The translations under genes were made by a program, and so were the position numbers. Shown in pieces: positions 4,572-32,603 of a DNA stretch of 64,000 nucleotides. Numbering within the stretch: the first letter of the stretch is position 1; each line of letters opens with the position of its first letter. This DNA comes from Bacteroidales bacterium (GTDB lineage Bacteria > Bacteroidota > Bacteroidia > Bacteroidales > UBA932). The stretch is taken from NCBI GenBank assembly GCA_016286385.1, contig JAEESO010000004.1, positions 1 to 64,000 on the forward strand, read 5' to 3'. The notes under the pieces are model-generated. The model saw only the letters and a list, made by a program, of their open reading frames with translations, was not told the origin of the DNA and made no database searches.

Positions 4572-4913
4572 TTAAGCATCTATTTCCAAGTGCTGGGCAG
4601 CAACGTGGTTGTTGGTTAGATACCTGACAAGGAAGGTCGTTTCGCCATCTATGTCATGAACGCTGTAGAAAACATACCAAACGGTTTGTTTATTGTGTTT
4701 AAAGGCAGAGTAAAATAGGTCGGTCCCATAACGCTCGAAATAAGCGGGAGCCCCCTTCCGTACCTTTAGAGGAAGATTTGTCTGAATATCTCTAAACAGT
4801 TGCTCCGAATACGCGATGGCCGCATCTTTAAAGCCAAGATACCCTTCATCGTAGAGTACTTGGGCAAGTTCAAGGAATTGATTGACGACTTCTGGAAGAA
4901 ATAGGACCTTCAT
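4572..4913 (-). CDS. RelE/ParE-superfamily toxin
   Basis: Small ORF right after an antitoxin-like gene; YGTDLFYSAFKHNKQTVWYVFYSVHDIDGETTFLVRYLTNNH is RelE/ParE-like. Confidence 0.65.
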   Translation of the reverse strand: MKVLFLPEVVNQFLELAQVLYDEGYLGFKDAAIAYSEQLFRDIQTNLPLKVRKGAPAYFERYGTDLFYSAFKHNKQTVWYVFYSVHDIDGETTFLVRYLTNNHVAAQHLEIDA

Positions 4914-13899: not shown

Positions 13900-14004
13900 G
13901 GTACTGAGCGTACACGTTTTGGGGCGTTTTTGTGTATGGCAAGTACCCGCTGGTACTGATCGTACACGTTTTGGGCTGTTTTTGTGTATGGCGAGTACCC
14001 TGCT
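13900..14004. repeat. Two tandem ~52-bp imperfect palindromic units
   Basis: ggtactgaKcgtacacgttttggg..gtttttgtgtatggcRagtaccc starts at 13900 and again at 13952. Confidence 0.85.
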
Positions 14005-14008
14005 GGGA

Positions 14009-15940: not shown

Positions 15941-17653
15941 ATGAAATATCAGATTGATAACATTTCCGCTCCGTGGATGGAAAGCTACGGTGGCGTGAAC
16001 CCGCATCTTGACTATTCAGAGAAAACAATATCGGAGGCAGTCCTGGAAACTGCCGCCAGGGAAAAGGATTTCCCGGCCCTCACATTCATGGGCAAGGCCA
16101 CAAGCTACACCCGCCTTGCGCAGGAGATTGACAAGGTTGCACGCAGCTTCTGGGCATTCGGTGTCCGTCCCGGCAACCGTGTCCTGGTTTGCCTTCCCAA
16201 TGTGCCCCAGGCGGTTTTCTGCCTCTATGGCCTCAACAGGATAGGCGCCATTCCTACAATGGTGCATCCTCTGTCGGCCGTAAGTGAGCTCACCTTCTAT
16301 ATGAACGAGGCCGGCTGCGACATTGTCGTAACCCTGGATCAGTTCTATGCCAAGTTCCTGGAGGTGAAAAGGCAGCGCCAGGTGAAAAAGGTCATCGTGT
16401 GCCGCGTGTCGGATGAGCTCCCGTTCCCCCTTAATATCGGCCAGAAACTCCTTACGGAAAGGAAGTTCCCCAAACTCCAGGATGAGGATATCGCGTGGCA
16501 TGCTTTCATTGCGATGGGCAGCTGCGTGACAGGAGGGTATGTGGCAAAGAAGGATTACCGCTCCGAGGCTGTGGTCCTCTTCTCCGGTGGCACCACAGGC
16601 ACCACCAAGGGCATCATGCTCAGTGACCTTAACTTCAACGCCCTGGCCTGGCAAACCGCCAACATGGCCCAGGAGGAGGTCCACCACTCCAAGATGCTGG
16701 CCGCAATGCCGGTGTTCCATGGGTTCGGCCTTGGCGTGTGCATCCACACTATGCAGTTTATCGGCGGCACATCCATCCTTGTGCCCCGCTTCAACGTGAA
16801 GAGCTATGCAAAGCTCATCCGTAAGACCCAGCCCAACTTCATTGCCGGCGTGCCCACCCTCTTTGAGGCAATTACGCGCAACCGCTATCTTGACGGGGCC
16901 GATCTAAGCTGCCTGAGGGGCGTTTTCTCCGGCGGAGACTCCCTTACGATAGAGCTCAAGAAGAAGTTTGACGCCTTCCTTAAGGACCATAACGCCCGCG
17001 TACGTGTACGCGAAGGATATGGTACCACTGAATGCGTCACCGCCTGCTGCCTTACTCCCCACGACAAAGAGAAGGAAGGCTCCATCGGCATTCCTTTCCC
17101 GGATACCTATTTCAAGATCTGCAAGCCCGGCACTACGGAGGAAGTCCCCTATGGAGAGGAGGGCGAAATCTGCCTCACCGGTCCTTCGATGATGCTTGGT
17201 TACATCGGCCATGAGGAAGAGAACAGGCAGACTATGCAGGAGCACCCGGACGGCCACGTGTGGCTCCACACCGGAGACCTTGGCAAGATGGATGAGGAAG
17301 GTTTTGTGTACTTCCGTCAGCGCATCAAGAGGATGATAGTGACAAGCGGATACAACGTGTATCCTTCTCAGCTTGAGAACATAATCGAAGGCCATCCCGC
17401 CGTCCAGCGCAGCTGCGTGATTGGCGTGAAAGACGCCCTCAAGATGCAGAGGGTGAAGGCTTTCATCGTTCTGAAGGACGGCTACACTCCTTCTGCAGAA
17501 ATGGAAGAAGAGCTCCGTGCATACTGCAAGAAGCATATCGCAAAATACGCTCTCCCTTCAGAGTTTGAGTTCCGCGATTCCCTTCCCACCACCCTTGTGG
17601 GCAAGGTGGCCTACACCAAGCTTGAGGCCGAAGAAGCCGCCAAAGCGGTCTGA
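15941..17653 (+). CDS. AMP-dependent acyl-CoA synthetase/ligase
   Basis: FSGGTTGTTKGIMLSDLNF, GYGTTE, LHTGDLGKMDEEGFVYFRQRIKRMI. Confidence 0.93.
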   Translation: MKYQIDNISAPWMESYGGVNPHLDYSEKTISEAVLETAAREKDFPALTFMGKATSYTRLAQEIDKVARSFWAFGVRPGNRVLVCLPNVPQAVFCLYGLNRIGAIPTMVHPLSAVSELTFYMNEAGCDIVVTLDQFYAKFLEVKRQRQVKKVIVCRVSDELPFPLNIGQKLLTERKFPKLQDEDIAWHAFIAMGSCVTGGYVAKKDYRSEAVVLFSGGTTGTTKGIMLSDLNFNALAWQTANMAQEEVHHSKMLAAMPVFHGFGLGVCIHTMQFIGGTSILVPRFNVKSYAKLIRKTQPNFIAGVPTLFEAITRNRYLDGADLSCLRGVFSGGDSLTIELKKKFDAFLKDHNARVRVREGYGTTECVTACCLTPHDKEKEGSIGIPFPDTYFKICKPGTTEEVPYGEEGEICLTGPSMMLGYIGHEEENRQTMQEHPDGHVWLHTGDLGKMDEEGFVYFRQRIKRMIVTSGYNVYPSQLENIIEGHPAVQRSCVIGVKDALKMQRVKAFIVLKDGYTPSAEMEEELRAYCKKHIAKYALPSEFEFRDSLPTTLVGKVAYTKLEAEEAAKAV

Positions 17654-17738
17654 GTCACGTTTCAGCCCCATTTCATGACCAAGATCGTCTGACGCGACGA
17701 ACAAAGTCACAAAACGGCATTGAAACGTGACTAAGATG
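17652..17738 (-). repeat. REP-like doublet A (two ~39-bp palindromic units, 52-bp pitch)
   Basis: gagtcacgtttcagccccatttcatgaccaagatc ... aaagtcacaaaacggcattgaaacgtgactaagatg; reverse complement aligns with 21297..21387. Confidence 0.85.
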
Positions 17739-17761
17739 GTGGATTAGGGCGTGGATGGAAG

Positions 17762-19036
17762 TTATTTAATTGCCATAATCTGCAGATATTCCCCGGTGAG
17801 GCCGCCCTGGCCGTTCTGGGAATCGGCAATGAGGAGGAGCGCCTGGCGGCCGCCGGAAAGTTTGGGACCAAGGCACATTCCTTCATAATTGGCAAGGTTG
17901 AGGGCCGATGTAACAATGCGGGTCACAAGCTTTTTCTCAAGGATACCGCCCTTGTCGTTGAGGGGATCCACAACGTAGAGAGTGCTGAGAGTGAATGCTC
18001 CCAGCGCTTTTTCTATGATGCTTCCGCCGGGGACCAGAACCTCCCTCTCAAGCATGATGATGCGCCCGTCTTCAAGGACGGTCATAGCAGAAAGGCCGTG
18101 GACATAGGCCTGGGCCGATGAAATCTGCTCATCAGTAGCCAGCGGCTGACCCATCATATAGAGGTACCGGGCATCGGGATCAGTGCCTGAAAAGCGCTGG
18201 AGCCTTATGATGCTTTTGTGAAGGCCTTCTTCCTGGAGGGACTTCTCAGTGGCGGCCCAGAAATAGCCGCGGTCTGCGTCATATGCCAGGGCCTCGAAGC
18301 CGGCGTTGGGCTGGATGGCCTTAAGGTCTTCAGGGACTTCCATGGCGCGCCCGGTGGGTTCCCCCTCTACGGTGTATTCACGCACGGACTGGTCACCTTC
18401 AGCGCTCACATAGAGAGTGTTGGATGAAGGAACGTAAACTATGTCTTCGTTGTCCTTGCCGCCAGCCTTCCCGGCATTACCGGGGACTTCCTTGGCCTGG
18501 ATGGTGCCCACAACGCCCGCATTGTCAATGGGGATGTTGAAAAGGTGGATGCCGCCGCCGGTGCTTTTATCGTGCACAAGGGCGTATACGTCGTCTTTCA
18601 CGTGGGTGATGCCGGAATATTCACCGGAAGCAACGGGCATGCGGTGCTGACGGAGGTATTCGGCCTTTATATCGGCCTGAGGGGCCGATTCCTCATACTT
18701 CAGAGGCTCAAAGCTGCCGTCCTTTTCCAGCCTTGCCGTCCAGAGAGAGCCGTCGTCCATCTGGATGAAGGCCACCATAGGGTATGTGTCCTCGTTTGCG
18801 AGGGTATCTTTGATCTGGACCTTGCCGGAGACGCCCTCCAGGCTCTTTGCAAGGAGGACAGGCTTATTGTCAAGCGAGTGAAGCTCCAAAGCCGTAGCTT
18901 TGTGCTTTGACGGCACCTTGAACTCAAGGTTCACTTCATTGACGCCGTCGTCATCGGCCTTTGACTGCCCAGCCGATACCCCGCAACTCCACAAGGAGAG
19001 CCACGCCAGGAGCAGCCCAATGACTTTTGTGCTCAT
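17762..19036 (-). CDS. Exported esterase-like (phytase-like beta-propeller) protein
   Basis: [19 protein letters not shown] lipoprotein-like signal; SGITHVKDDVYALVHD ... GFEALAYDADRGYFWAATEKS ... NYEGMCLGPKL pattern. Start set at 19036 (ATGA overlap with tdk). Confidence 0.7.
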   Translation of the reverse strand: MSTKVIGLLLAWLSLWSCGVSAGQSKADDDGVNEVNLEFKVPSKHKATALELHSLDNKPVLLAKSLEGVSGKVQIKDTLANEDTYPMVAFIQMDDGSLWTARLEKDGSFEPLKYEESAPQADIKAEYLRQHRMPVASGEYSGITHVKDDVYALVHDKSTGGGIHLFNIPIDNAGVVGTIQAKEVPGNAGKAGGKDNEDIVYVPSSNTLYVSAEGDQSVREYTVEGEPTGRAMEVPEDLKAIQPNAGFEALAYDADRGYFWAATEKSLQEEGLHKSIIRLQRFSGTDPDARYLYMMGQPLATDEQISSAQAYVHGLSAMTVLEDGRIIMLEREVLVPGGSIIEKALGAFTLSTLYVVDPLNDKGGILEKKLVTRIVTSALNLANYEGMCLGPKLSGGRQALLLIADSQNGQGGLTGEYLQIMAIK

Positions 19037-19617
19037 CAGCCTTCTGCGTCTTCTTTGAGGGCCTTCTGGTAGCATTCGCGGCAGAGGGGCTCATAGGTAT
19101 CCTTCTCTCCCAGGACCACCAGTTTCTTGGAGGCAGATAAACGGTGGGAGTGGTTTGCAAGCGCCCCGCACCTTACGCAGATTGCATGCACCTTCTGGAC
19201 ATCCTCCGCGATGGCCATAAGGCCGGGCATGGGGCCGAAAGGCTTGTCCATGAAGTCAGTATCCAGGCCTGCGATTATCACGCGTACGCCGCGTTTGTTG
19301 GCCAGTTCCTGGACTACTTCTATGATGTTTTCATCGAAGAACTGGGCCTCGTCAATGCCCACAACCTGAACGTCAGGCTCTATCTGGAGCATCCTGGACG
19401 GGGATTTGATGGGCGTGCAGGAAATGCTGTGGGAGTCATGGGACACCACGTCAAGGTCTGAGTAACGCTTATCTATGGTAGGTTTGAAAGTGGCTATCTT
19501 CTGCTTTGCAAACTGTGCCCTTTTGAGCCTTCTGATGAGCTCTTCCGTCTTACCTGAGAACATGGACCCGCAAATAACCTCAATGCAGCCCGATTTTTTT
19601 GCATTTTCCAAAAACAT
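19036..19617 (-). CDS. tdk: Thymidine kinase
   Basis: [32 protein letters not shown], zinc-ribbon cysteines. Confidence 0.96.
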
Positions 19618-19622
19618 TTCCG

Positions 19623-19654
19623 TAACTTTGTTAGTGTTGACTTATGCAAAGTTA
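19623..19654. promoter_or_regulatory. Face-to-face overlapping promoters for tdk and rsmI
   Basis: TAACTTTG at 19623..19630 (+) with TTG 21 nt upstream; TAACTTTG on minus at 19647..19654 with TTG 19 nt upstream. Confidence 0.55.
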
Positions 19655-19661
19655 GTCAATT

Positions 19662-20408
19662 ATGGAGAAAAGTCAAACAGGAAAACTGTACATAGTTCCA
19701 ACTCCGGTCGGGAATCTGGAAGATTTTACCTTCAGGGCCGTCAAAGTCCTTAAGGAGGCCGATCTAATATTGGCGGAAGACACCCGCACAACCTCCGTGC
19801 TCCTCAAGCACTATGACATCCATGTCCCTTGCCAGAGCCACCACAAGTGGAATGAACACCAGACCGTGGAGGCCGTCAAGGAACGCATCCTGGGCGGGCT
19901 CAACGTAGCACTTGTCTCAGATGCCGGCACCCCCGGAATATCAGACCCCGGATTCCTCCTTGCCCGCGCCTGCGCAGAAGCGGGAATTGAGGTCCAGACA
20001 CTCCCAGGGCCCACTGCCTGCATCCCTGCCATAGTGTCTTCCGGCCTTCCCTGCGACCGCTTTGCCTTTGAGGGGTTCCTTCCACAGAAAAAGGGCCGCC
20101 AAACGCATCTGCAGGCGCTTTCCACAGAATCGAGGACTATGATTTTCTACGAATCTCCATACAGGCTTGTGAAAACTCTGGAGCAGTTCGGGGAGTATTT
20201 CGGCCCGGACCGTCAGTGCTCCGTTGCCCGTGAAATCTCCAAGATGTTCGAGGAGCACCGTCGCGGCACCCTTCAGGAGGTTGCCGCATGGTACCGTGAA
20301 CATGAGCCAAAGGGAGAGATTGTGATTGTTGTCGCCGGCGCAGTGCCGGAAAAGTTATCTAAAAAGAAGCGCTATGGAAGAGGGGAAGATGAAACGGAAA
20401 CCGCTTAG
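19662..20408 (+). CDS. rsmI: 16S rRNA (cytidine(1402)-2'-O)-methyltransferase
   Basis: LYIVPTPVGNLEDFTFRAVKVLKEADLILAEDTRTTSVLLKHY and SDAGTPGISDPGFLL. Confidence 0.96.
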   Translation: MEKSQTGKLYIVPTPVGNLEDFTFRAVKVLKEADLILAEDTRTTSVLLKHYDIHVPCQSHHKWNEHQTVEAVKERILGGLNVALVSDAGTPGISDPGFLLARACAEAGIEVQTLPGPTACIPAIVSSGLPCDRFAFEGFLPQKKGRQTHLQALSTESRTMIFYESPYRLVKTLEQFGEYFGPDRQCSVAREISKMFEEHRRGTLQEVAAWYREHEPKGEIVIVVAGAVPEKLSKKKRYGRGEDETETA

Positions 20409-21291
20409 TGCAAGTTTCGTCACCGGGGCAATCGCCCTTGTCTTTCTTATTATAGGTTATGAGGTGGCCGTGTTCATCCACAAGGCCGCCGTTACCCGCA
20501 TTGAGGCCAACCGTGACCATCCGGACACCGTGTATGTGTACGTGAATGAGACCCCCGGTCAAGCCGGGGGTGACGAAAACATTTCCGTCATGCCCGGCCC
20601 CGACCGGGCATCTCATACCATAATGAGAAAGAACGCCAGGCACAGTCCGGTTGTGGAGGCGGTGAGGGCCCGGTCCCGCCGGGTGGAGAGTTTCCGCTTC
20701 AACCCCAACACCGTGAGCGTTGAAGACCTCCAGCGGCTTGGTTTCAGTGAGAAGCAGGCCCAGTCCATTGATAATTATAGGCAGAAGGGTGGCCGGTTCC
20801 GCCGCAAGGAGGACTTTGCAAAATCCTATGTGGTGGCAGATTCCGTCTATGACCGCCTTGAGCCATATATCGTCATCCCAAAACTGGACATCAACAAAGC
20901 CGATAGCACTGCGCTTTTGGACCTTCCCGGTATCGGCCCTTATTTTGCCGGCAAGATAGTGAGTTACCGCACTAGCCTCCGCGGCTATTCCGCCCCGGAG
21001 CAGCTTATGGAAATCTATCACTTTGACCGTGAGAAGTATGACGGCCTGAAAGACCTTATAACCTGCTCCGCCCCAGAGCCTTACCCTATCTGGACCCTTT
21101 CAGAGGATGAACTGTCAAAGCATCCTCACATTTCCCGTGCCGAGGCCCATTCCATTGTCATTTACAGGGAACACCACACCCCCTCCGAATGCACTTTCAA
21201 AGGGTTAAGGAAAGCCGGCACGCTCTCTGAGGAGCACGCCGGCAGACTATCCCTATGCAAACTGCAATCTGCCGCTGCCGCCACGCCCTAA
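20374..21291 (+). CDS. Helix-hairpin-helix ComEA-like protein
   Basis: N-terminal TM, FRFNPNTVSVEDLQRLGFSEKQAQSI and LDINKADSTALLDLPGIGPYFAGKIVSYR. Confidence 0.85.
   Translation: MEEGKMKRKPLSASFVTGAIALVFLIIGYEVAVFIHKAAVTRIEANRDHPDTVYVYVNETPGQAGGDENISVMPGPDRASHTIMRKNARHSPVVEAVRARSRRVESFRFNPNTVSVEDLQRLGFSEKQAQSIDNYRQKGGRFRRKEDFAKSYVVADSVYDRLEPYIVIPKLDINKADSTALLDLPGIGPYFAGKIVSYRTSLRGYSAPEQLMEIYHFDREKYDGLKDLITCSAPEPYPIWTLSEDELSKHPHISRAEAHSIVIYREHHTPSECTFKGLRKAGTLSEEHAGRLSLCKLQSAAAATP
20551..20613. repeat. Two palindromic repeats inside the comEA-like CDS
   Basis: acccccggtcaagccgggggt (20551..20571) and gtcatgcccggccccgaccgggcatctc (20587..20613). Confidence 0.8.
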
Positions 21292-21296
21292 TCCAC

Positions 21297-21439
21297 CATC
21301 TTAGTCTCATTTAAAGGCCATTTTGTGACTTTGTTCGTCGCCTCAGACAATCTTAGTCATGAAATGGGCTCAAAACGTGACTTAGATCGGTTCCATAGAC
21401 AATCTTAGTCACGAATAGCGGGCTAAACGTGACTAAGAC
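21297..21439. repeat. REP-like array B (three ~39-bp palindromic units, 52-bp pitch)
   Basis: Units start at 21297, 21349, 21401; e.g. aatcttagtcatgaaatgggctcaaaacgtgacttagat. Confidence 0.92.
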
Positions 21440-21475
21440 CGTTATAAAGGGCAGAGGCAAGGGCCGGGTAGGGGA

Positions 21476-22396
21476 TTAGAGCGGCTTGATGCCATAATCC
21501 TTTGACCGAATGGCCTGTGAGATGGTGAGTTCTGAAAGATACAGCGCCTGGGATAGCTGCAGCGGCGTGAAGCCAAGCCTTTCGTTAAGACTTACGGCCA
21601 CGCGGCACTTTTCCTCCCTTGAGAGAGTCTTGAACAGCCGTCCGGGATATTCATTTCGCAGCTCCGTGTTGGCAATGTCACGGATTTCATTCATTGAGAA
21701 AACAACTTCCTCATCAAGTGCCCTTGCAATGACTACCGCTGTCTCATATTCTTTCACAAGACGGGTATGGAAGTCTTTTGCCGATTCAAACAGCCTCATA
21801 ACTTCCTCTACCTTGACAAAGCATTTAGGGAGGATCCCCAGTTCCGGATGGATTTCCCAATCTGGCGGCAATACCTCTTTTGATCCGATCAGCGCACGGA
21901 CCTTAGCCTGGGACAGGGAAGACACCTTATCCCCGCGGATAATATCTGCCAATTGGTTGAAATACAGGTAGCCGCTGCCCCATTTATGACCTCCCGGGCC
22001 GCAAAAATCCTTCTCATACGGGTTCCTGACGGTATAGAGGACCTGGTCTTTTAAATCTTTGTCATTCAGGATTGGTTTTAGTATGCAGCCATAGTCTTCC
22101 GGAAGTGGCGGAAGACCATTTTTTATCATCTGCTCAGAAATCCTTCTCTTTTGGAACGAAAAGACCTGCATACACTGCTCACCCGTCCCGCGAAGGACGT
22201 CGTGGATGTGGTTTGGCATAAGGTCAAAAGCAAACACGTCTACCCCAAACTTCAGAGTGGAAAGCGCTATTCCAGCCATCCCCAGTCTGTAATCCTCATC
22301 TGTGGTGAAAAGATTACGGTCCTCAAGGCGGTCAAAGCACAGGTGATAACAGCCAAAGGGCATATTCTTATATTCTTCTTTTGTAATTCTGTTCAT
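21476..22396 (-). CDS. REP-associated tyrosine transposase (RAYT, Y1/IS200-like HUH) with C-terminal HTH-like region
   Basis: FGCYHLCFDRLEDRNLFTTDEDY, FAFDLMPNHIHDVL (HUH), LYTVRNPYEKDF...HKWGSGYLYF; C-terminal LSREEKCRVAVSLNERLGFTPLQLSQALYLSELTISQAIR. Start set at internal ATG 22396; the ORF-track start overlaps a repeat unit. Confidence 0.88.
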   Translation of the reverse strand: MNRITKEEYKNMPFGCYHLCFDRLEDRNLFTTDEDYRLGMAGIALSTLKFGVDVFAFDLMPNHIHDVLRGTGEQCMQVFSFQKRRISEQMIKNGLPPLPEDYGCILKPILNDKDLKDQVLYTVRNPYEKDFCGPGGHKWGSGYLYFNQLADIIRGDKVSSLSQAKVRALIGSKEVLPPDWEIHPELGILPKCFVKVEEVMRLFESAKDFHTRLVKEYETAVVIARALDEEVVFSMNEIRDIANTELRNEYPGRLFKTLSREEKCRVAVSLNERLGFTPLQLSQALYLSELTISQAIRSKDYGIKPL

Positions 22397-22424
22397 AATT
22401 TGGTCAATTGAAGTGTTAAAGCGC

Positions 22425-22662
22425 AATCTTAGTCATGAAAACGCTGCAAAATGTGACTTTGATGGTCAGTGAAGACAATCTTAGTCAAGAAAACGCCTCA
22501 AAACGTGACTAAGACTTTTGCGGGAAGCAATCTTAGTCATGAAATAGGGCCAAAACGTGACTTAGACCGGAGCAAACAGCGGTTTTGATCACGAATGGTG
22601 AAATCAAATGTGTAGGGAAACAATCTTAGTCACGAATAGCAGGCTAAACGTGACTAAGATTG
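22425..22662. repeat. REP-like array C (four clear units and one degenerate)
   Basis: Units start at 22425, 22477, 22529, ~22581 (degenerate), 22622; last is caatcttagtcacg...cgtgactaagattg with a perfect 14-bp stem. Confidence 0.93.
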
Positions 22663-22684: not shown

Positions 22685-23710
22685 TTAATCCTGGACCTTC
22701 ACAAGGGCCTCGCGGATTTTGGCTTCAATTTCCTCTGCGAGTTCAGGGTTGTCCAGCATGAGGTTCTTGACGGCTTCACGGCCCTGGGCAAGTTTGGAGT
22801 CATTGTAGCTGAACCAGGAACCGGACTTCTGGATGATGCCAAGCTCCACGCCAAGGTCTACGATTTCTCCGCTGCGGGAGATGCCTTCACCAAAAACTAT
22901 GTCGAATTCTGCCTTGCGGAAAGGCGGGGCCATCTTGTTCTTTACCACCTTTACCTTCACGTGGTTTCCAAGGGCGTCGTCTCCGTCCTTGATCTGGGTG
23001 GTGCGGCGGATGTCCAGGCGCACGGAAGCATAGAATTTGAGGGCGTTGCCGCCGGTGGTGGTTTCAGGATTGCCGAACATGATGCCGATTTTCTCACGAA
23101 GCTGGTTGATGAAAATGCAGCATGTGCCGGTTTTGGAGATGTTTGCGGTGAGTTTGCGGAGAGCCTGCGACATGAGGCGGGCCTGGAGGCCAACTTTATT
23201 GTCTCCCATCTCTCCCTCGATCTCTGCGCGGGGCGTGAGGGCCGCTACGGAGTCAATGACCACGATGTCTACTGCGCCGCTGCGGATAAGGTTGTCTGCA
23301 ATCTCAAGGGCCTGCTCTCCGTTATCCGGCTGTGAAATGAGGAGAGTGTCCAGATTTACGCCAAGGGACTTTGCATATGTGCGGTCAAAGGCATGCTCTG
23401 CGTCAATGATGGCAGCGATGCCGCCATTTTTCTGTGCCTGTGCGATTGCGTGGATGGCCAGCGTGGTTTTACCGGAAGACTCCGGGCCGTAGATTTCCAC
23501 AATCCTGCCTTTTGGATAACCACCGATTCCAAGGGCGTGGTCCAGGGCTATTGAGCCGCTGGGGATAACCTGGGAGGCGTCCCATTCAGGCTGGTCTCCC
23601 AGCTTCATGATGGTACCCTTGCCGTAGTCTTTCTCAATTTTGTCAATTGTTGCCTGAAGCGCCTTCAGTTTGGCTGCATTCATCTGGGCTCCGTCTGCTT
23701 CTTTTGCCAT
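22685..23710 (-). CDS. recA: Recombinase RecA
   Basis: [58 protein letters not shown]. Confidence 0.98.
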
Positions 23711-27790: not shown

Positions 27791-27809
27791 TTTTGCGGTC
27801 CAAAATAAT

Positions 27810-28124
27810 GGCAGGACGATCTGTCGCGGGAAACCGAGGAAAGTCCGCACAGGACAGGGCACCCGTCTGTGGAAAGCACAGTGGGGAGTAATCTTCAAAA
27901 TGCGTAACAGAGAATAACCGCCGGAGTTTTTCTTTTTTTTCTCCGGTAAGGGTGAAAACGCGGGGTAAGAGCCCACGACGCTTTGCGGCGACGTAAAGCG
28001 GGTACGCATCCGGGCCTGCAAGACCAAATATACCGGCAGCTGAGGGCTGCCCGCCTGATGCCGGGGGGTAGGTTGCGAAGATAAATGACAGATTTAAAAA
28101 CAGAAAGCGGCTTACGGCCCTGCC
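27810..28124 (+). ncRNA. rnpB: RNase P RNA
   Basis: gaggaaagtccgcac, aagagcccac, and complementary ends ggcagg ... cctgcc. Confidence 0.92.
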
Positions 28125-28138
28125 ATTTTTACAAAAAG

Positions 28139-29600: not shown

Positions 29601-30356
29601 ATGAGACTGTCAAGAATCATACTTCCCGTAATCCTCATGTGCCTGAGCGCCTGCTCCGGAGCCCAGGTGAAGCATTACGGCGTAAAGGTTGTGAAAGAAT
29701 ACCCCCACAGCCGTGACGCCTATACCCAGGGCCTCTTTTTCCATGACGGAACCCTCTATGAGACCACAGGCCAGTACGGTGAAAGTTCCATCCGCACAGT
29801 AGACCTTCAGACAGGCAAGCCCATAATCGTAAAGCGCCTCAGTGAGAAATACTTCGGTGAAGGCAGTTGCATCTTTGACGGAGACCTGTACGTTCTCACC
29901 TGGACCAACCGTGTAGCATTCCGCTACAACCCTGATGGTCTTGAATACAAAAAGACCGTGGGCTACGGCAGGGAAGGCTGGGGCCTTACCACCAACGGTA
30001 AAAGCCTCATAGCCTCCGACGGCAGCTCCAACCTCTTTTTCCTCAACGCCAACCTCACACTGGAAAAGAAACTGCAGGTTACCCTTAACGGCCGCCCCTT
30101 ACGCAATCTCAATGAACTTGAATGGATTGACGGCAAGATATGGGCAAACGTCTATCTCACGGATACAATTGTGGTGATAGACCCCCATTCCGGCAAGGTA
30201 ACCGCCACCATAAACTGTAAGGGCCTTCTCCCTGAAAAGGAAAAGCGCCGTGACACGGACGTTCTCAACGGCATTGCCGTAGACGCCAGCGGCCGCATCT
30301 ACCTCACCGGCAAGAACTGGCCCAAACTCTATCAGATAGAACTTTTAAATAAATAG
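29601..30356 (+). CDS. Glutaminyl-peptide cyclotransferase, lipoprotein
   Basis: YPHSRDAYTQGLFFHDGTLYETTGQYGESSIR, NELEWIDGKIWANVYLTD. Confidence 0.88.
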   Translation: MRLSRIILPVILMCLSACSGAQVKHYGVKVVKEYPHSRDAYTQGLFFHDGTLYETTGQYGESSIRTVDLQTGKPIIVKRLSEKYFGEGSCIFDGDLYVLTWTNRVAFRYNPDGLEYKKTVGYGREGWGLTTNGKSLIASDGSSNLFFLNANLTLEKKLQVTLNGRPLRNLNELEWIDGKIWANVYLTDTIVVIDPHSGKVTATINCKGLLPEKEKRRDTDVLNGIAVDASGRIYLTGKNWPKLYQIELLNK

Positions 30357-30424
30357 GGGTATCCGGAAGGTCCGGATTGAGATTATACCCTCATAACTTG
30401 ATACGGTTCATACCGTCGTAAGGA
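30356..30424 (+). promoter_or_regulatory. TPP (thiamin pyrophosphate) riboswitch
   Basis: ggggtatccggaaggtccggattgagattatacccTCATAACTTGATacggttcataccgtcgtaaggaa fits the THI-box core (GAGAT..ATACCC...GAACTTGAT...AAGGAA). Confidence 0.85.
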
Positions 30425-30425
30425 A

Positions 30426-32603
30426 ATGAAAAAAGAACTGCTTTTTGCTGCAGCGCTTGCGGTGCTGCCTCTCTGTGCAGGTGCACAGGAAATGACGGAG
30501 CGTCTGGACTCCGTGGTAATATCGGCCTCACGTGCCGGTGACAAGACTCCCGTAACCCATACAGACGTTGGAAAAGAGGCTCTGAGGGCCTCCAACCCGT
30601 CTTTTTCTCTACCGATGGCCCTGGAACTCCTGCCGTCCGTTGTGACTTACAACGAGGGCGGAACCGGCCTTGGAAACTCCGCCATGACAATCCGCGGAAG
30701 CAAGGGCTCCCAGATCAACGTCACCCTCAACGGAATCACCCTCAACGACGCAGAGTCCCAGGAGGTGTTCTGGGTGAACATCCCGTCCATCACGGCGCTG
30801 GTTTCCGGCGTGCAGGTCCAGAGGGGCCTTGGAACAACAATGAGTGGCGCGGGGGACTTCGGCGCATCCATCAATATGAATACCGCCCTTGTGCAGCCTG
30901 ATCCTTCGGGCCGATTAACCCTCTCCGCCGGCTCCTTCGGCACAAGGATGCTCCAGGCGCAGACATCAACCGGCCTTCTTCCGGGAAGATGGTATATGGA
31001 CCTTTTCTTCTCTGCCGGCCACACGGACGGATACATCCGAGGGGCAAACGTAGAGAGCGCATCGCTCTTTGGGGTGCTGGGCTGGCTTGGGAAACGTAAT
31101 TCCCTGAGGCTCACCCTCCTTCACGGGCAGCAGAGAAGCGGCATCACCTGGGACGGAATAGACCTGGAGCAGTATCAGAAGGACAGAAGGTACAACGGCG
31201 CCGGAGAGTACGTTGACGACAGCGGCAATATCCGGTATTACCCCGGTCAGACGGATAACTACATCCAGACCCACCTTCAGCTTAACTACACCCACTCCTT
31301 TGGGAGCGCCCTCACCTGGACTTCCACCCTCAACTATACCCGCGGAGACGGCTACGACGAGTACTACAAGATGAACCGGAAACTTGCTTCCTTCGGCTTT
31401 CCCGGCGTGACGGAAGTTCCCGCAAAGAGCGACATGATCTACCGCAAGAAGATGGACAACGACCTCTGGGTGCTCAGCTCCTCCCTCCGATACCGCTCAG
31501 GCACAATCAATGCCACCGCCGGGGTGAACCTCTCCCATTACCGCGGCGGCCATTTCGGGGAAGTACTCTGGGTAAAGAGCCTTGAGGCGGCGGGAATCGG
31601 CCTTAAGGACAAGTTCAAGGGCTGGTATGACAATACGGGTATAAAGGCCGATGCCAGCGCCTTTGCCCGCGCCGAGTGGAGCCCGCTGGAGTGGCTCACA
31701 GCTTATGCCGACCTCCAGTACAGGGCCATCAATTACTCTATGGCCGGCCCCGATGACGACGGCGTGTCGCTGGACTACGCCTCCGTCTGGCGCTTTTTCA
31801 ACCCCCGCATGGGCGTCACCTTTGAGAAAGGCCCGCACAGGGTGTTCCTCTCCGCGGCTATCGGCCAGAGGGAACCCGGCAGGGGAGACATCAAGGAGAA
31901 CATAAAGGGGGAGGTAAGCCCCATTGCGCCGGAAAAGATGCTGGACGTGGAGCTTGGCTACCGCCTGAGCCTTGAGAGGTTCTCTTTCCAGGCCAACCTC
32001 TACGCCATGGAGTACAAGGATATGCTTCTTGAGACGGGCCGATTGTCAAACGCCGGCTATGCCATCAAGGAGAATATGCCCCGGGCCTGGCGCCGCGGCG
32101 TTGAGCTCCAGGCCGCCTGGATGCCCGTAAGGTGGCTGGCCCTTGACGGAAACGCAACTCTTTCTATGAACCAGATCAAGGATTTCACCTCATACGTTCC
32201 CTATGACGACGATTCCGGAAGGATGTACCCCGTGAACTACGGCCTTACAACCATGCTCATGAGCCCCGGTGCCATCGGGATGGCCCGCGTGCGCGTAATG
32301 CCCTGGAAGGGAGGGGAGATCTCAATGAATGCAAAATTTGTCGGTAAGCAGTACCTTGACAACTCCATGAGGGAGGAGATGGCCGTGCCGTTTTACTGGA
32401 CGGCAGGGGCTTCCGTCTCCCACGAATTTAACTTCGGCCTTAAGTTAAGTGCCTTTGTGAACAATATTTTCAACCGAATGTACTACGCCGCCGGCTGGCG
32501 CTGGGAAAGCTACAATGAGGCGGAAAATGTGGTCTACAGTGGCATAGGAGTGTACCCCCAGCCTCCTGTCAACTTCATTGTCAAGGCCGAATATTCTTTT
32601 TAA
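30426..32603 (+). CDS. TonB-dependent outer membrane receptor, predicted thiamin uptake
   Basis: Plug and barrel sequence; sits 1 nt after the TPP riboswitch. Confidence 0.88.
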   Translation: MKKELLFAAALAVLPLCAGAQEMTERLDSVVISASRAGDKTPVTHTDVGKEALRASNPSFSLPMALELLPSVVTYNEGGTGLGNSAMTIRGSKGSQINVTLNGITLNDAESQEVFWVNIPSITALVSGVQVQRGLGTTMSGAGDFGASINMNTALVQPDPSGRLTLSAGSFGTRMLQAQTSTGLLPGRWYMDLFFSAGHTDGYIRGANVESASLFGVLGWLGKRNSLRLTLLHGQQRSGITWDGIDLEQYQKDRRYNGAGEYVDDSGNIRYYPGQTDNYIQTHLQLNYTHSFGSALTWTSTLNYTRGDGYDEYYKMNRKLASFGFPGVTEVPAKSDMIYRKKMDNDLWVLSSSLRYRSGTINATAGVNLSHYRGGHFGEVLWVKSLEAAGIGLKDKFKGWYDNTGIKADASAFARAEWSPLEWLTAYADLQYRAINYSMAGPDDDGVSLDYASVWRFFNPRMGVTFEKGPHRVFLSAAIGQREPGRGDIKENIKGEVSPIAPEKMLDVELGYRLSLERFSFQANLYAMEYKDMLLETGRLSNAGYAIKENMPRAWRRGVELQAAWMPVRWLALDGNATLSMNQIKDFTSYVPYDDDSGRMYPVNYGLTTMLMSPGAIGMARVRVMPWKGGEISMNAKFVGKQYLDNSMREEMAVPFYWTAGASVSHEFNFGLKLSAFVNNIFNRMYYAAGWRWESYNEAENVVYSGIGVYPQPPVNFIVKAEYSF

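Follow-up and report, generated by a model that had tools for sequence, protein, structure and literature searches.

A RAYT gene beside recA in a Bacteroidales genome, its palindromic units, and a 52-bp pitch common to unrelated palindromes

The window analyzed here is a 64,000-nucleotide stretch of a Bacteroidales draft genome. It contains an intact gene of the HUH/Y1 transposase kind, referred to below as RAYT1, with arrays of palindromic units on both sides. RAYT1 (21476..22396, minus strand) is identified by its open reading frame, its invariant residues and its fold match. It lies between a ComEA-like gene (20326-21291) and recA (an open reading frame at 22685..23710, on the same, minus, strand), immediately downstream of the latter. 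The longest RAYT1 reading frame begins with a TTG at 22426 and has 316 codons; the true start is probably the ATG at 22396 (306 aa), because orthologs open with MNRIT or MNRNT. Residue numbers in this report follow the 316-aa numbering.

The units are 39-bp palindromes, given here on the plus strand. Three lie on the 3' side of the gene: a divergent unit at 21297..21335, a second at 21349..21387, and a near-perfect hairpin at 21401..21439. Five lie on the 5' side: 22425..22463, which precedes the probable start codon by some 29 bp; 22477..22515; 22529..22567; a degenerate unit at 22581..22619, still present in one relative (genome G300); and a last unit at 22622..22660, which adjoins recA and is 98% identical to the unit at 21401. 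Start-to-start, the pitch is 52 bp throughout, except for the step from 22581 to 22622, which is 41 bp. A RAYT-like gene between palindromic arrays is what an earlier note on this DNA, made from the letters alone, had described, and it is what we find; the 52-bp pitch claimed in that note holds for every step but the last on the 5' side. At lag 52 the two sides match themselves with scores of 33 (3') and 46 (5'), whereas shuffled flanks do not exceed 11. Hairpin strength is greatest in the two boundary units, 21401 and 22622, which lie at either edge of the gene module (−17 to −20 kcal/mol); for the other units it is approximately −2 to −12 kcal/mol. The spacers between units are partly symmetric themselves, and partly common to several copies. 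A CRISPR-like guide array was considered and rejected on account of these spacers and because no effector-type gene is seen. Rfam has no match at the arrays; elsewhere in the window it reports an ordinary RNase P RNA (class A; 27808-28130) and an ordinary TPP riboswitch (30345-30441).

RAYT1 has the catalytic residues of its kind. All 58 homologs compared keep, without exception, the HUH histidines H73 and H75, and likewise H28, M70, Y131 and N135. The consensus tyrosine motif of the branch is YxxRNxYEK, and RAYT1 has no tryptophan between H75 and Y131. Searched against the PDB, the AlphaFold2 model (pLDDT 93) best matches 4er8, the complex of E. coli TnpA_REP with a REP hairpin (E = 1.5e-3; TM 0.65 by target), followed by the TnpA proteins of IS608 and ISDra2. 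The 4er8 match covers 165 residues; beyond it, after residue ~205, RAYT1 has an extra helical C-terminal domain. Profile searches place the protein below the curated cut-offs both for Pfam Y1_Tnp (11.7 bits, versus 23 needed) and for NF047646, REP_Tyr_transpos (19 bits, E = 1e-3, versus 80 needed), and the best-scoring of the 58 homologs reaches E = 9e-10. These misses reflect the model thresholds and are not a biological feature; Pfam and NCBIfam on their own would have dismissed the gene. For three of the RAYT paralogs in the genome, dN/dS against close orthologs is 0.09-0.10, and these are therefore under purifying selection; one further pair, RAYT1 versus L139, was saturated, and one control of the dN/dS analysis failed.

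The unit is not confined to this locus. When the 3' array sequence is searched for in the 2.64-Mb draft genome, the unit appears outside the window as doublets of 52-bp pitch at seven sites, and singly at three. Altogether the genome holds approximately 27 units of the RAYT1 family, mostly in 52-bp-pitch doublets. One dispersed doublet lies in the window itself, at 17643..17754 on the minus strand, and was missed in the earlier note; it is 87% identical over 112 bp to 21280-21390, in inverted orientation. Within the dispersed doublets the units are mostly direct, and those of the doublet on contig C55 are inverted. Since the dispersed copies are mostly doublets, regular arrays in place of doublets, as had been proposed, are not what sets this system apart; the distinctive trait is instead a fixed 52-bp pitch across unrelated palindromes.

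The dispersed doublets lie at intergenic sites, some of which are unoccupied in near relatives. The flanks of ten dispersed family-1 elements (family 1 being that of the RAYT1 units) were sought in four relatives, G300-G303. At C30:10443, the element is cleanly missing in G303. At two other sites G301 is the genome without the element: C19:45967, occupied in G302 and G303, and C63:164738, occupied in G302. At C9:5160, half a unit is left in G303; deletion, therefore, happens too, and a difference between relatives may stem from a deletion or from an insertion. No target duplication was found at the dispersed elements compared with these four genomes, and sequence comparison identified no cleavage site for the RAYT1 units. 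A stretch of ~45 bp beside the unit on contig C4 (L057 right flank, query 4700-4746) has many copies in all four relatives, and is evidently another dispersed repeat.

RAYT1 orthologs 64-94% identical to it adjoin recA in five other genomes as well (G273, G662, G626, G700 and G300), and the gene is therefore a long-term resident there. In G273 (75% identity), the family-1 unit is still recognizable; in G626 and G662 the stem is a different one (CTTAAGCA...TGCTTAAG), at a pitch of 51-52 bp. The G300 copy of the gene is broken at about residue 179. G303, whose flanks are 93% identical to those of the window, has neither RAYT1 nor the 5' array, and keeps a single unit in the place that a fusion of units 21401 and 22622 would occupy, a layout that looks like the expected product of recombination between these two boundary units. 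G302 has one unit only at this site, and G301 has no gene and other repeats. Because more distant relatives hold the gene, its loss from these relatives is more likely than its gain. The neighboring segment of ~3.5 kb, ~17755-21283, has one orientation in the window, G301 and G303, and the opposite one in G300 and G302; the inversion ends at RAYT1-family units in the window and in G300, and G302 is without the doublet at one end.

Does the unit accompany the gene more widely? The earlier note had suggested searching the genome and its relatives for the unit, and the outcomes that would have told against its proposal, units at these loci alone or none in relatives with the same RAYT, were not observed. 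Family-1 units (E ≤ 1e-4) occur in exactly three of 151 sampled genomes of the genus, and these are the three with a RAYT1 at least 75% identical; the associated p of 2e-6 ignores kinship, and the co-occurring genomes are relatives of one another. Co-occurrence is not strict, since the near relatives G301-G303 keep dispersed units although they are without RAYT1, as expected after recent loss of the gene.

Besides RAYT1, the genome has six HUH/Y1 genes. Four of these (on C67 twice, C59 and C6; L043, L044, L042 and L045) have arrays on both sides, each with a palindrome of its own, and in each the pitch is exactly 52 bp. The unit families of these paralogs are dispersed too, mostly as doublets; C6-type arrays reach at least six units, and two of them are found at the end of a contig (C6:1 and C71:81911). 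The HUH/Y1 paralogs are only 25-45% identical, and each type of gene is present in single copy. The other two (on C29 and C63; L046 and L047) resemble the RAYT1 branch in being HUH/Y1 genes with palindromes on their flanks, but differ in having DH[VL]H and Y..NNP motifs and canonical-like palindromic flanks, of ~104-108 bp, whose ends begin with GTGG; the C63 element is widely dispersed, at more than ten places. The window also holds a 52-bp-pitch doublet of yet another unit family (GGTACT...AGTACC), at 13900..14006 on the plus strand, likewise missed at first. Its unit, GGTACTGA...GAGTACC, resembles the arrays at two RAYTs of relatives, L098 and L102, and also sequence in G301 at the site of RAYT1. 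In this genome no RAYT flanked by such units was found, and the doublet is probably an orphan here.

The same pitch recurs among relatives. A direct repeat reached significance in 69 flanks of 52 non-redundant close homologs, drawn from 92 fetched loci; the pitch is 51-53 bp in 60 of these flanks, and exactly 52 bp, or five turns of B-DNA, in 44. As a control, 26 of 204 windows from the same loci reach the repeat threshold, and four of the 26 fall at 51-53 bp (Fisher p = 9e-11). More distant homologs have flank pitches of 51-53 bp, and also of 104, 74, 76 and 94 bp; repeats at 74, 104 and 94 bp were seen at L158, L150, L153 and L165. The unit sequences, in contrast to the pitch, change. Units of RAYTs less than 50% identical are barely more alike than shuffled sequence (median local score 10-11 versus 9-10), and units of RAYTs more than 80% identical are clearly alike (two pairs only). 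Across pairs, which are not independent of one another, unit likeness correlates with RAYT identity (Spearman 0.21, p = 2e-10), and unit sequence thus appears to co-diverge with its RAYT, as it also does along the series of orthologs beside recA. A loose core, A-tract, GGC/GCC, A/T-tract, is found at 29 of 51 loci, versus nine of 204 control windows; automatic detection of palindrome centers was too noisy for alignment of all units, and gave no center in 18 of 68 arrays. Successive units match better in direct orientation in 54 of 59 arrays and in inverted orientation in four, figures to be read in the knowledge that detection favored direct repeats and that the units are near-palindromic. The GT[AG]G foot, which guides cleavage in the RAYTs that have been studied, is not enriched in the arrays (11.2 per kb, versus 14.7 in the control), and neither is a CGTC foot. 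The branch occurs (E ≤ 1e-10) in 151 of 300 sampled genomes of its family, and was absent (E ≤ 1e-15) from 298 other genomes sampled from the phylum; its close named relatives are all MAGs of Bacteroidales or Bacteroidia, many of them ruminant-derived by their titles. It is an undescribed, family-restricted branch of the RAYTs.

From this anatomy we infer that the enzyme acts on the units. We consider it probable that the locus is a RAYT/REP-type system, or 'REPtron', of this undescribed branch, in which the enzyme nicks and moves doublets, and the bridging of two units sets the 52-bp pitch. RAYT1 would bind unit hairpins in single-stranded DNA, nick beside them through Tyr131, and carry the doublet, by copying or moving it, to intergenic sites elsewhere that are single-stranded. 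Two units would be bridged by the extra C-terminal helical domain, or by a dimer, and the pitch set in this way; the long arrays that flank the gene would lengthen in 52-bp steps; and stem sequence would co-diverge with the protein while the pitch stayed fixed. The nearly constant spacing of near-unrelated palindromes suggests, in addition, that the enzyme measures distance. More tentatively, then, RAYT1 may represent a new class of RAYT that reads a fixed, five-turn spacing between successive units and not a GTAG guide, such that distance is selected, stems drift, and private palindromes share one ruler; we regard this stronger proposal as possible, and hold it with less confidence than the REPtron itself.

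The best-surviving alternative, which we nonetheless think unlikely, is that the arrays serve mainly as binding sites in double-stranded DNA. With a pitch of five helical turns, the units would lie on one face of the helix, and co-operative binding, whether by the C-terminal helical domain of RAYT1 or by some host protein, would serve in autoregulation or in the architecture of the chromosome; transposition would be past or secondary. A pitch conserved at 51-53 bp although sequence changes, the A-tracts around the GGC/GCC core, the all-helical C-terminal region of the AlphaFold2 model, and a 5' array directly upstream of the start codon are all consistent with this. The presence and absence of dispersed doublets between close relatives argue against it, as do boundary units that are still strong hairpins, and an invariant HUH motif and tyrosine, which would be needless in a mere binding protein. 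More doubtful still is a passive role for the units, in which slippage and recombination would have spread and amplified palindromes of the host, terminators for example, and RAYT genes would have happened to land alongside. The loss of RAYT1 in G303, which resembles recombination between the boundary units, and the ~3.5-kb inversion with its ends at units fit such an account, but at every array-bearing RAYT paralog both flanks carry a unit family peculiar to that gene, and unit sequence follows RAYT identity. Finally, an ordinary IS200/IS605 insertion sequence with palindromic ends, moving its own gene, would share the HUH/Y1 fold, but is scarcely credible when there are no near-identical gene copies, when RAYT1 sits beside recA in six genomes, and when what is dispersed is the units and not the gene.

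RAYTs are the best-known domesticated bacterial transposases, and this genome is well suited to studying how REPs beyond the GTAG classes are chosen and spread: five paralogs with five unrelated palindromes on one pitch form a natural mix-and-match panel, in which cognate specificity and the role of spacing are directly testable, and in the close relatives one can see where doublets have come and gone, where the RAYT has been lost, and where a segment bounded by units has been inverted.

How does this branch compare with the systems already known? RAYTs that satisfied the criteria of Nunvar 2010 were confined to gammaproteobacteria and came with GT[AG]G heads (PMC2817692), and the earlier note took such systems to be described mostly in that class. 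This is out of date: Bacteroidetes subclass 2.6 (equal to Bertels group 5) has, according to the text of Quentin 2018, 'atypical secondary structures' on its flanks that are devoid of GT[AG]G and have further copies in the genome (PMC6006769), and the association of RAYT and palindrome is therefore not in itself new. Going by that text, subclass 2.6 and the RAYT1 branch have in common their occurrence in Bacteroidetes, NH[LIV]H, atypical palindromes without GT[AG]G, and genomic copies. They differ in the tyrosine motif (YIH[QN]NP in subclass 2.6, YxxRNxYEK in the RAYT1 branch), in the W or WQ between HUH and tyrosine, present in subclass 2.6 and missing in RAYT1, and in length (179 aa, versus ~306-316 aa); arrays with a regular pitch are seen at the RAYT1 branch, and the Quentin 2018 text does not mention them for subclass 2.6 (PMC6006769). 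In the texts consulted we found no description of 52-bp RAYT arrays or of a single pitch common to unrelated palindromes, and supplements or subscription papers may show such arrays. The REPINs of Pseudomonas fluorescens SBW25, like the RAYT1 units, are dispersed, RAYT-linked doublets with some evenly spaced tandem arrays (PMC3116915). In SBW25, 93% are inverted doublets, with a spacing of 71 or 110 bp by class (PMC3116915), whereas the doublets of the RAYT1 branch appear to be mostly head-to-tail, with a single pitch of 52 bp across classes; and the RAYT1-family units in this genome number far below classical REP counts. E. coli TnpA_REP (4er8), the best fold match, shares with RAYT1 the HUH motif and single tyrosine, and differs in its GTAG-footed REP, in lacking the extra helical C-terminal domain, and in sequence (17% identity). 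To call the locus a Bacteroidetes REP-RAYT system is thus correct in kind, by fold, catalytic residues, flanking units and dispersed doublets, and by the unoccupied sites in relatives and the limited co-occurrence of gene and unit, but the system departs from the known classes. There is good support for RAYT1 as a RAYT accompanied by its cognate palindromes; membership of a named subclass is not supported.
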